Below, one piece after another: positions 1,334-9,858 of a DNA stretch of 64,000 nucleotides. A program made the position numbers and the translations under genes. This stretch comes from Archaeoglobus sp. JdFR-27 (GTDB taxonomy: Archaea; Halobacteriota; Archaeoglobi; Archaeoglobales; Archaeoglobaceae), in the NCBI GenBank assembly GCA_002011235.1, contig MTMO01000002.1:1-64000 (forward strand), read 5' to 3'. The stretch's first letter is position 1. Every line of letters begins with the position of its first letter. The notes under the pieces are model-generated. The model was given only the letters and a program-made list of their open reading frames with translations. It had not been told where the DNA came from and did no database searches.

Positions 1334-2528
1334 GTGCAGCCATACAAAACATGCAAACTGTTTGGGGCATTGAGAGTTGTCTTAGGTATTCTGGATGCTA
1401 TTGCACTTCTGCACAGCCCAAGAGGATGCGCATACAACTTGAGATATCTTCTGAGTGTGAGAGGGGCTAAGGTTAACAGGATTCTTACTACAGAAATGGA
1501 TGAGAAAGATGTCATTTTTGGAGGGGAGTCAAGGCTAAGGAAAGCTATAGAAGCAGTTGACGAAAAATATTCGCCAAACTTAATTGCAGTTTTAACGTCT
1601 TGTGCGAGTAGCATAATCGGAGAGGATATTGAGCTTATATGCAGAGATATAGAACCAGAAACCAAAGCCAAGCTCCTTCCTATCCATTCGGGAGGCTTTG
1701 AGGGGGATCAAATCGATGGCTATAAAGAAGCTATGAGGAGAATAGTGGAAGATCTGGTTGAATCCTTTGATGAGGGTGAGAAAGAGGGGGGTGAACCTGC
1801 TTGCAGTTTATAGGTACGGCTGGGATCTTGAGGAGGTAAAGAGGCTTGTAGAATTGATTACAAAAACGAACTCAATTTTAACTGCCAAAACAAGTTTGGA
1901 GGAGATAAGAAAAACCTCAAAAGCTTCTCTAAATGTAGTGATGTGTGAAGCCAGTGGTTTCGATGCTGCAAGGTTGATGAAGAAGAAGTTTAGTGTCCCA
2001 TATATTCACCCTTTGCTGCCGATTGGTTTCAAAGCGACGAGGGAGTTTTTAGAAAGTATTTCAGAGTTTTTCGATAAAAGGATCCCTAGCGAATTCTTCA
2101 GAGAAGAGAGAAGTGCGTTGAAAAAAGTTAAGAGTCTAAAGGAGAAAACGACTGGCAGGAAAGCTTGCGTGGTCAGTGGAGCAAGCAGAATAGCCCCGCT
2201 AACTCAGCTCCTATGTGAACTTGGATTCGATGTCGTACTTGTTTCAATCGATAGGCCAGGAGAGACAACGCTGGAAGATCTAAACAGAGTAACGAAGGAA
2301 CTGGGCATAAATCCGAGGATTATCGTGGAACCTAATGCTGAAGAGGTTCTTATGGCTGTAGAAGAGGAGAAACCGGATCTGATTATTGGAGGTCTATACG
2401 AAACCGAAGTCTCGAAAATCTTTGGAATCCCACTTTTAGATGTGATGCACGGAGAAAAGAAAACCATGGGGTTTGAGGGGGCAGTAAATCTTGCTAAAAA
2501 TATAGGGGTGATTCTATTAGGAAGATAG
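1334..2528 (+). pseudogene. nitrogenase component 1-type (NifD/CfbD-like) protein, one gene split by a frameshift at a G6 run (1786-1791)
   Basis: Part 1 (1334-1813): CKLFGALRVVLGILDAIALLHSPRGCAYNLRYLL...VLTSCASSIIGEDIE, P-cluster-type Cys pattern. Part 2 (1758-2528): VNLLAVYRYGWDLEEVKRL...LLDVMHGEKKTMGFEGAVNLAKNIG. Deleting one G joins them. Confidence 0.8.
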
Positions 2529-3310
2529 CGATATATGGTAAAGGTGGCATTGGAAAGTCGACTATAGCTGCCAATGTCTCTGCTGCTTTGGCTGAAAAAG
2601 GTAAAAAAGTCATGTTGATCGGGTGTGATCCAAAAAGAGACGCAACTCTGACACTTGTAGGGAGGCGCTTAACACCCCTTCTTGAAATGATTCTTGAAGG
2701 AAACGTTAGTAAGGAAAGCATAATTCATAAGGGGTATAGAGGAGTTCTATGTATTGAAATTGGCGGTCCTGAACCCGGGATAGGGTGTGCGGGAAGAGGC
2801 TTAATTCTGGCCTTTAAAGAACTTGAGGAAATTGAAGTGTTCAATGGTTTGGATCTAGTTATCTACGATGTTCCAGGAGATATTGTCTGTGGAGGATTTG
2901 CAGTTCCAATGAGGGAGGGGAATGCTAGAGAGGTCTATATAGTCACTTCTGGAGAGTACCTTTCTTTATTTGCAGCAAATAATATATGTAGGGCGATAAG
3001 AAGAGTTGGCGCAAAACTTGGTGGTGTGATATGTAATTCAAGAAATGTGGAAAATGAAGAAGAGATTGTTAAAAGCTTTGCAGAAAGGATCGGTGGGGGT
3101 TTAATTGGTATAATTCCGAGGGATAAGATCGTTCAGCACTGCGAAAGCAAAAACAAGACCGTAGTTGAGTGCGCACCTGAAAGTAAACAGGCAAAAATAT
3201 ATAGAAATATCGCAGAAACTATTTTTAAGAACAGAAATTTAGTAAAACCAAATGTACTGGGTTTAGATGAGTTAAATGCCATCTGTTTCAGCCTCCTCTC
3301 AACTTTTTAG
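2516..3310 (+). CDS. NifH-like iron protein (P-loop ATPase, 4Fe-4S), probable ATT start
   Basis: RKIAIYGKGGIGKSTIAANVSAALAEKGKKVMLIGCDPKRDAT plus ligand motifs GPEPGIGCAGRG and DVPGDIVCGGFA. Only ATT (2516) is available as a start after the in-frame TAA at 2495; GGGGTGAT at 2505-2512. Confidence 0.85.
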   Translation: MRKIAIYGKGGIGKSTIAANVSAALAEKGKKVMLIGCDPKRDATLTLVGRRLTPLLEMILEGNVSKESIIHKGYRGVLCIEIGGPEPGIGCAGRGLILAFKELEEIEVFNGLDLVIYDVPGDIVCGGFAVPMREGNAREVYIVTSGEYLSLFAANNICRAIRRVGAKLGGVICNSRNVENEEEIVKSFAERIGGGLIGIIPRDKIVQHCESKNKTVVECAPESKQAKIYRNIAETIFKNRNLVKPNVLGLDELNAICFSLLSTF

Positions 3311-4106
3311 AACTAACAGAGGATTAAATCATCCGTGCTTTAATGAAAGCGTTTGTAATAAAGTGGGCAGAATCCATCTCCCCGTCGCAAAAAGGTGCAA
3401 TCTCAAATGTAATTACTGCTCAAACTCCACGAATCCAAGGAAAACTGAAAAAATTATCGGTTCTGATGAGGCTTTGGCAATTGTAGGAAAAATTCTCGAT
3501 AAAATGTATGAGAGCAAATTTGTTGTTGGAGTTTCAGGCCCGGGAGATGCTTTGTTTAATAGGGAGACTTTTGAGGTATTAAAGAGTGCAAAGGAAACGT
3601 TTGATGTACCGACTTGTTTGTGTACCAATGGTCTGCTTTTACCTCAGAAAATAGGTGAATTAAATAAAATTGGTTTGGAGTACATTACAATAACGATAAA
3701 TGCTGTTGACGTTAGTGTAGCAGAAAAAATATATTCACATGCATTTTACAATGGAAAGCTTGTTAAAGGCTCGGAATGTGCTAAAATTTTGATAAAGAAT
3801 CAGATGAAGGGGTTAAGGCTTGCATCTAAGAGGATGCCGGTTAAAATAAATTCTGTTTTAATCCCAGGAGTAAACGATGAACATCTAATCGAGGTGGCCG
3901 AAAGAATTGGGGAATATGCGTGTATTCAGAACATCATTCCTTTATTTCCGACTGGGAAATTTTCAAATTTTAGCTCTCCATCAAAAACTCTTGTTGAAAG
4001 CGTTAAGAAGAAGTGTGAAAAATACTTGAATCAGATGAGGCACTGTGCATTTTGCAGAGCTGATGCTGCGGGGATTGTAGGCGAGAGCAAAACCATCTTT
4101 TGCTGA
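3276..4106 (+). CDS. nifB: NifB-type radical SAM nitrogenase cofactor biosynthesis protein
   Basis: HPCFNESVCNKVGRIHLPVAKRCNLKCNYCSN N-terminal motif, radical SAM CxxxCxxC, and C-terminal CAFCRADAAGIVGE as in NifB. Confidence 0.85.
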   Translation: MPSVSASSQLFRTNRGLNHPCFNESVCNKVGRIHLPVAKRCNLKCNYCSNSTNPRKTEKIIGSDEALAIVGKILDKMYESKFVVGVSGPGDALFNRETFEVLKSAKETFDVPTCLCTNGLLLPQKIGELNKIGLEYITITINAVDVSVAEKIYSHAFYNGKLVKGSECAKILIKNQMKGLRLASKRMPVKINSVLIPGVNDEHLIEVAERIGEYACIQNIIPLFPTGKFSNFSSPSKTLVESVKKKCEKYLNQMRHCAFCRADAAGIVGESKTIFC

Positions 4107-8904: not shown

Positions 8905-9858
8905 ATGGAACTAATGGGTTTAAATTCGGATCTTAAGGATCTTTTCAGAGGAAGCATCCTCGGTGTTGCGATAGGTGATGCCTTAGGAATGCCTACTGAA
9001 GGAATGAAAATTGAAGAGATAACGGAGACTTACGGATACATTGAGGATTTCTTTCCATCGCCTCTTGGAGACCTAAATGCTGGAGAATGGACCGATGATA
9101 CTGAGCAGATGGTAATACTCGCGGAATCCATCGTTGACAGGATATATCTCGATCCAGAAGATTTCACTTCAAAACTAATTTCATGGGCTGAAAATGCCTT
9201 CAAGATTCGAACAGGCCCAACAACAAGACAGGCATTGAGAAATCTCCTTCGTGGTGCATCTTGGGATAGGGCTGGAGTCGATTCAGCCACATGTGGGGCT
9301 GCTATGAGAGTGGCTCCCATCGGTCTAGTTTATCACTTTAATATCGATCTCGTCGAGAGGTATGCTGCAATCTCAGCTTCGATAACTCATAAAAATCAGT
9401 CTGCGATAGCTGGAGCTGTTGCCGTAGCAACAGCAATTTCCTGCTTAGTTTCAGACTTCAGTGATGAAGAAATGCTATCAGAAGTTGTTTCAAGAACAAG
9501 GAAATACGATAAACTGATATCAGAGAAAATAGAATACTCTGAGGAGATAAAAAATGAGGGGCTAGAGTATGCCGTTGAAAAACTTGGTAACTCGATTATG
9601 ACTTGGGATGTTGTTCCAATGGCATTTTACTGCTTTTTCTCATCTGATAATTTCAGTGATGCTGTTAAAAAAGGGGCTAATGCTGGTGGAGATACAGATT
9701 CCATAGCTGCTATCGCTGGAGGAATTTCTGGTGCGAAGTTCGGCGAAAATTCAATCCCAGATAAGTGGAAAAATAAAGTTAAAGATTCCTCATACCTTAT
9801 CGAGCTTGCAGATCTTTTGTATGTAACTCACATGAAAATTGTGACACTTTCACCTTGA
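8905..9858 (+). CDS. ADP-ribosylglycohydrolase (DraG) family protein
   Basis: GVAIGDALGMPTEGM, WTDDTEQM, NAGGDTDSIAAIAGGISGA. Confidence 0.9.
   Translation: MELMGLNSDLKDLFRGSILGVAIGDALGMPTEGMKIEEITETYGYIEDFFPSPLGDLNAGEWTDDTEQMVILAESIVDRIYLDPEDFTSKLISWAENAFKIRTGPTTRQALRNLLRGASWDRAGVDSATCGAAMRVAPIGLVYHFNIDLVERYAAISASITHKNQSAIAGAVAVATAISCLVSDFSDEEMLSEVVSRTRKYDKLISEKIEYSEEIKNEGLEYAVEKLGNSIMTWDVVPMAFYCFFSSDNFSDAVKKGANAGGDTDSIAAIAGGISGAKFGENSIPDKWKNKVKDSSYLIELADLLYVTHMKIVTLSP

Follow-up and report, generated by a model that had tools for sequence, protein, structure and literature searches.

According to our in silico analysis, a nitrogenase component-1-like protein (D) of Archaeoglobus sp. JdFR-27 belongs to an archaeal, apparently undescribed family that is a second K-less family beside CfbD. 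The gene lies in a plus-strand run of three at 1334-4106, followed by an Fe protein gene (H) and nifB, neighbours overlapping one another. The stretch analyzed here (the window, 64,000 nucleotides) opens contig 13 of a draft genome (G000) that comprises 67 contigs and 2.36 Mb and is 99.7% complete. We consider it probable, from the gene content and the ligand residues described below, that the product of the cassette is an ATP-driven, two-component reductase belonging to the nitrogenase superfamily, in which a single gene would provide the catalytic component, a homo-oligomer bearing a NifB-made cluster.

The cassette and its recurrence in a second genome

All three genes named in the original prediction are present at this place, with profile matches far above chance. 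The component-1-like gene matches PF00148 over its full length, but it is split over two ORFs and does not occupy one frame as had been claimed. Its N-terminal part (1334..1813, +; PF00148 positions 1-142, E 3.3e-43) agrees with the family frame until about 1785, and its C-terminal part (1758..2528, +; PF00148 positions 144-394, E 7.4e-51) follows that frame from about 1791. The sequence and its comparison with an intact D from the MAG Archaeoglobales archaeon isolate B5_G16 (G020) place the break in a G6 tract (1786..1791, +): removal of one G merges the two ORFs into a D of 397 aa, and the joined frames resume where the intact protein continues.

H (2516..3310, +) is a CfbC/NifH-type Fe protein (PF00142, E 1e-90). 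As predicted, it has both 4Fe-4S motifs (GIGCAGRG and DVPGDIVCGG), with the P-loop (GKGGIGKS) and the ligand cysteines kept. Its best curated model is F430_CfbC (378 bits, below the cut-off of 402), and in a tree its sister group is formed by the CfbC-type genes from two Archaeoglobi with mcr (98/96), yet the window genome has no CfbD. On this evidence, D seems to have retained or recruited an Fe protein of the CfbC type. Neither the window (2495-2530) nor B5_G16 (L033 4636-4700) has an in-frame ATG, GTG or TTG ahead of the P-loop of H. A start at TTG 2588 was rejected, as this codon falls downstream of the P-loop, and the sole in-frame candidate upstream of it is ATT at 2516-2518. The homologous start position, which overlaps the end of D, is ATT in the window (2516) and ATC in B5_G16 (4680). 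It is preceded 7 nt upstream in both genomes by an SD-like sequence (GGGG or GGAGG), which in the window is GGGGTGAT at 2505-2512. This looks like a conserved non-AUG start. We set aside a D-H fusion produced by frameshifting because the SD-like sequence is found at this distance in both genomes.

NifB (3276..4106, +; 276 aa), a radical-SAM cluster synthase, was likewise correctly recognized, matching TIGR01290 (E 2.9e-68) and the solved NifB structures 7jmb/7bi7 (E 2.4e-68). It carries the HPCFNE, CNLKCNYC and CAFCRADAAG motifs, has no NifX domain and is sister to the NifB of B5_G16 (100/99). Whole-genome searches bore out the absence of NifK, NifE and NifN: D is the sole PF00148 gene of the window genome, which has one true NifH-type gene, one NifB and no separate CfbD. 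Nor does it hold an intact nifDK elsewhere, a finding that the original prediction had named as counting against it. Genome searches for mcrA and mcrC were negative in both the window genome and B5_G16.

Among 59 genomes of the Archaeoglobi class, NifB is found in 14, each of which also has nif-type PF00148 genes, a cfbD-type gene or a D family gene; NifB alone occurs in none of the 59. MCR activation is the presumed task of NifB in archaea with mcr (PMC12176620), and its co-occurrence with D there is therefore uninformative. In the window genome and B5_G16, D is the sole candidate that we found for using the NifB product. One genome of the same order as the window genome (G055; L018, L069) has CfbD-type and CfbC-type genes and no NifB, and in this differs from the mcr-bearing genomes of genus g13.

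The window cassette precedes pyrG and guaA. At the pyrG locus, four congeners and G021 were compared with the window, and all five align to it only from about 4803 on. GC content gives no clear transfer signal. About 5 kb past the cassette (8905-9858, +), the window encodes an ADP-ribosylglycohydrolase family protein (PF03747, 2.7e-75). This family includes DraG, a regulator of NifH. The window protein is probably unrelated to the cassette, because the congener G011 has a copy 86% identical in a genome without D.

The window genome and B5_G16 belong to one family and to separate genera. They are the only two of the 59 class genomes with close D homologs, and a scan with a profile of the D alignment gave one named match among genome contigs, B5_G16, and none among viral contigs. 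B5_G16 (QMZC01000041.1, L033) encodes an intact D of 395 aa, 64% identical to the window D, as its one component-1 gene, without K, E or N. The D-H pair is the same, H overlapping D, and NifB is adjacent and convergent; the genomic setting of the cassette is unlike that in the window. In B5_G16, D follows cbiB at a distance of 67 nt, and a cluster of the cbi/cobalt-transport type lies downstream (L033 2544-3437 and 10747-18896); the genes near the cassette include cbiX, cbiD, cbiG, several for tetrapyrrole methylases and one for a probable cobalt transporter. A role of D as a replacement for CbiJ was rejected: CbiJ was not found in any of 14 Archaeoglobi genomes tested, with or without D, and D is therefore no specific stand-in for it. 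The D-H-NifB arrangement is known from these two genomes.

Ligand residues, relatives and placement of D

The three P-cluster-type cysteines claimed for D were confirmed (codons 1352-1354, 1427-1429 and 1601-1603, +). The original prediction overlooked what is the most informative feature of the protein, its cofactor ligands, a Cys (1944-1946, +) and a His (2448-2450, +); the CfbC-like character of H, the frameshift in D and the wider D family were also invisible to it. In all 29 family members, the equivalents of NifD Cys62, Cys88, Cys154 and Cys275 and the cofactor His (in the NifE register; NifD His442 equivalent) are invariant, and so are Glu202 and Arg282 (G020 numbering). In ten CfbD sequences, just the equivalents of Cys88 and Cys154 are retained. 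At the site of the catalytic His195, 28 family members carry Tyr and one carries Leu. Because of this Tyr, N2 reduction is unlikely, and the substrate of D is probably not N2. Among solved structures, full-length D matches NifE best (9i0g, E 1.5e-44), and in this alignment Cys201 of D stands opposite a Cys and His369 opposite a His. An AlphaFold monomer of D, built on a three-row alignment, was weak (pLDDT 61.5); with this model, Foldseek retrieved nitrogenase subunits at E about 1e-20, at a TM of only about 0.45.

When 397 genomes of the phylum were searched, 27 members were added to the two D proteins described above, and sampling of the family is confined to this one archaeal phylum. The members are single genes of ~400 aa without K. 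Against a two-sequence D profile they score 245-344 bits, compared with at most 217 for other component-1-like proteins and about 45-56 for CfbD. Single-gene archaeal homologs with only the C88/C154 equivalents have been assigned to methanogenesis marker 13, i.e. CfbD (PMC3464626), and recent papers call CfbD the sole K-less member of the nitrogenase superfamily. We found no published description of the K-less D family in the open-access literature; an earlier one in the subscription literature is possible.

In 19 family loci examined, no NifH or K-type gene neighbours D; CfbD lies about 3 kb off in 3 of them and NifB about 5.5 kb off in 1. Around 20 family loci we observed only lineage-level synteny and no shared partner gene. 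As the D genes of the relatives have neither a conserved partner nor a NifH neighbour, the D-H pairing rests on two genomes. An mcrA match was found in 11/11 family-bearing relatives of these two genomes tested, partial or divergent in 2. Exactly one NifH-type gene is present in 14 of the 18 family-bearing genomes tested; in 11 of these 14 it falls within a clade whose four tested members exceed the CfbC cut-off, and in two f4 genomes (G077 and G059) and in G395 it is not clearly CfbC. Some holders of the family (e.g. G331, G165 and G059) also have D/K-type pairs with their own NifH, so other proteins of this kind can occur beside single-gene D.

Three further observations were made in the phylum. 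The most divergent family member belongs to G395 (L062, L117), whose mcrA is divergent (565 bits, under the cut-off) and whose single NifH-type gene scores higher as NifH than as CfbC. The f7 genomes (L124-L130) have several paired D/K-type sets of uncharacterised kind beside NifH-type genes, and L127, a D-side protein of these sets, lacks the Cys62 and Cys275 equivalents. G369 (L133) has a complete B-H-D-K cluster, the D of which has its best match in the solved structure of methylthio-alkane reductase (9fmg, 5.5e-60).

In a FastTree tree rooted on CfbD, the family formed a paraphyletic grade that branched at the base, ahead of the D/K split. This topology was dropped because a better model makes the family monophyletic: under IQ-TREE LG+C20 with CfbD included, it forms one clade (100/98), weakly attached to the D/E side (82/82). 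With the long CfbD branch left out, a 72-sequence tree separated D/E (96/92), K/N (97/92) and the D family (100/99), with the Mar-like D (L133) inside the D/E clade and the Mar-like K inside the K/N clade. Since these three lineages are well supported, the D family is neither a known NifD-type nor a NifK-type protein with a recent partner loss. A place inside CfbD, also named beforehand as counting against the original prediction, was not recovered: the best trees put D outside CfbD, and a clade uniting the window pair with CfbD was not formally rejected by the AU test (p 0.23). None of the three alternatives was rejected by AU tests (p 0.31 before the D/K split and p 0.31 with K).

It is close to an even call whether the family is a D-type subunit that lost K secondarily and is no older than the D/K split. 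The weak attachment to the D/E side in the tree with CfbD fits such a loss, as do the D-type cofactor ligands, which K lacks. Without the CfbD branch, however, the D/E and K/N clades both exclude the family with good support, so that any loss of K would fall on the D/E stem; the AU tests leave the options unseparated. Secondary loss concerns the origin of the family and is compatible with the homomeric mechanism that we propose. We put forward only tentatively, and with some doubt, that the family could be a surviving pre-duplication component 1, a homo-oligomer with a P-type and a NifB-made [8Fe-9S-C] cluster.

Proposed function and competing explanations

In the proposed reductase, NifB would make an [8Fe-9S-C] (L-type) cluster that is supplied directly to D without a NifEN step. 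A D2 (or D4) assembly would hold a P-type cluster at its symmetric interface through three Cys per subunit, six per pair, and each D would bind one NifB-made cluster through Cys201/His369. The CfbC-like H would dock on D, hydrolyse ATP and pass electrons. In most mcr-bearing relatives, D would borrow the CfbC-type Fe protein and the resident NifB. We infer the oligomeric state and the cluster types of D from ligand conservation and gene content only, and electron delivery by H and reductase activity are likewise predicted. The original prediction had offered two possibilities, a cofactor-bearing reductase other than nitrogenase and a variant F430-type enzyme. The former is plausible for a K-less D linked to NifB. 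The latter was not supported, since the CfbD model TIGR03282 gave 83 bits for the N part of D against a cut-off of 268 and no match to the C part, and since the genome lacks mcrA, mcrC and a separate cfbD.

The NifE likeness of D could also mean that it serves as a one-gene, homomeric counterpart of NifE, a scaffold or maturase on which the NifB cluster is held and processed before being handed to another protein, and is not itself the final catalyst. Among curated models the N part of D is best matched by NifE (TIGR01283 gives 103 and 99 bits for the N and C parts, cut-off 505), the best solved match is again NifE, and D, like NifE, has a residue other than His at the His195 position. We nevertheless think this role unlikely, as we found no known recipient, be it NifDK, McrC or another, in the two cassette genomes and D retains all three P-cluster Cys together with the cofactor His. 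That D-H is a tetrapyrrole reductase working like CfbCD, with the NifB link incidental or for something else, strikes us as very improbable. The invariant Cys and His cofactor ligands are missing from CfbD and its relatives, NifB stands beside D in the only two mcr-less D genomes, and most standalone loci have no tetrapyrrole neighbours, which weighs against the hints given by the CfbC-like H, the cbiB and cbi/cobalt-transport surroundings in B5_G16 and the 3/19 standalone relatives near cfbD. The absence of CbiJ from the tested Archaeoglobi regardless of D also speaks against it.

Because the window copy of D is frameshifted, the mechanism of the proposed NifB-cluster reductase is argued for the family and for the intact B5_G16 copy. 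The window copy may be broken or mis-assembled. We regard it as quite possible, though not the likelier case, that the window locus is a decaying remnant with a genuine frameshift and no D protein made: the G6 tract interrupts the frame, and the NifB branch is longer in the window than in B5_G16 (0.65 vs 0.27). A one-base homopolymer change is, however, a common assembly error in a 67-contig draft, D is otherwise intact, and its branch in the window is not longer than that of the B5_G16 protein. Between the two cassettes, pN is 0.16-0.29 against a pS of 0.79-0.92 (saturated) for D, H and NifB. With pN well below pS, the three proteins have therefore been under constraint, and for D this is evident on both sides of the frameshift.

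The D family may reveal a nitrogenase form predating the core gene duplication. If the pre-duplication reading is true, cluster acquisition preceded heteromerisation, and the rule that only CfbD is K-less ends. A K-less family with all P-cluster and cofactor ligands, accompanied in two genomes by an Fe protein and a NifB of its own, is a testable stand-in for the homomeric ancestor that earlier papers had to infer, which opens to experiment whether the clusters or the heteromer came first. D-H-NifB also offers a three-gene system for the study of NifB-cluster chemistry.

Comparison with known nitrogenase-like systems

The cassette resembles CfbCD in its archaeal origin, its one-gene component 1 without K and its CfbC-type Fe protein. 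CfbD, however, lacks the equivalents of Cys62, Cys275 and the cofactor His, all of which are invariant in the D family. CfbCD also goes with mcr and cfb genes and needs no NifB, whereas the window genome has no mcrA or separate cfbD and has NifB adjacent. With NifDK, VnfDK and AnfDK, D shares an Fe protein, the P-cluster Cys, the Cys275/His442-type ligands and NifB; in contrast to them, its genome lacks K, E and N, the His195 position is Tyr in 28/29 members, and the family falls outside the D/E and K/N clades. NifE is the closest solved chain to D (9i0g) and has its cofactor Cys and His in the same register, but the D genome has neither NifN nor a NifDK client, and D would be homomeric by gene content.

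MarDK holds a P-cluster and an [Fe8S9C] cluster, the latter via Cys270/His429 of MarD (PMC12552129). The group IV systems MarBHDK (methylthio-alkane reductase) and IsrBHDK (isethionate reductase) compare with the cassette as nitrogenase-like reductases whose H and D genes go with a radical-SAM B gene; they differ in that their K subunit is required and that the Mar-like D (L133) lies in the D/E clade, with the D family outside it. The McrC/Mmp7 MCR activation complex is another archaeal destination of NifB-type [8Fe-9S-C] clusters (PMC12176620). Unlike D, it is not of the Nif family, and both cassette genomes lack mcrA and mcrC.
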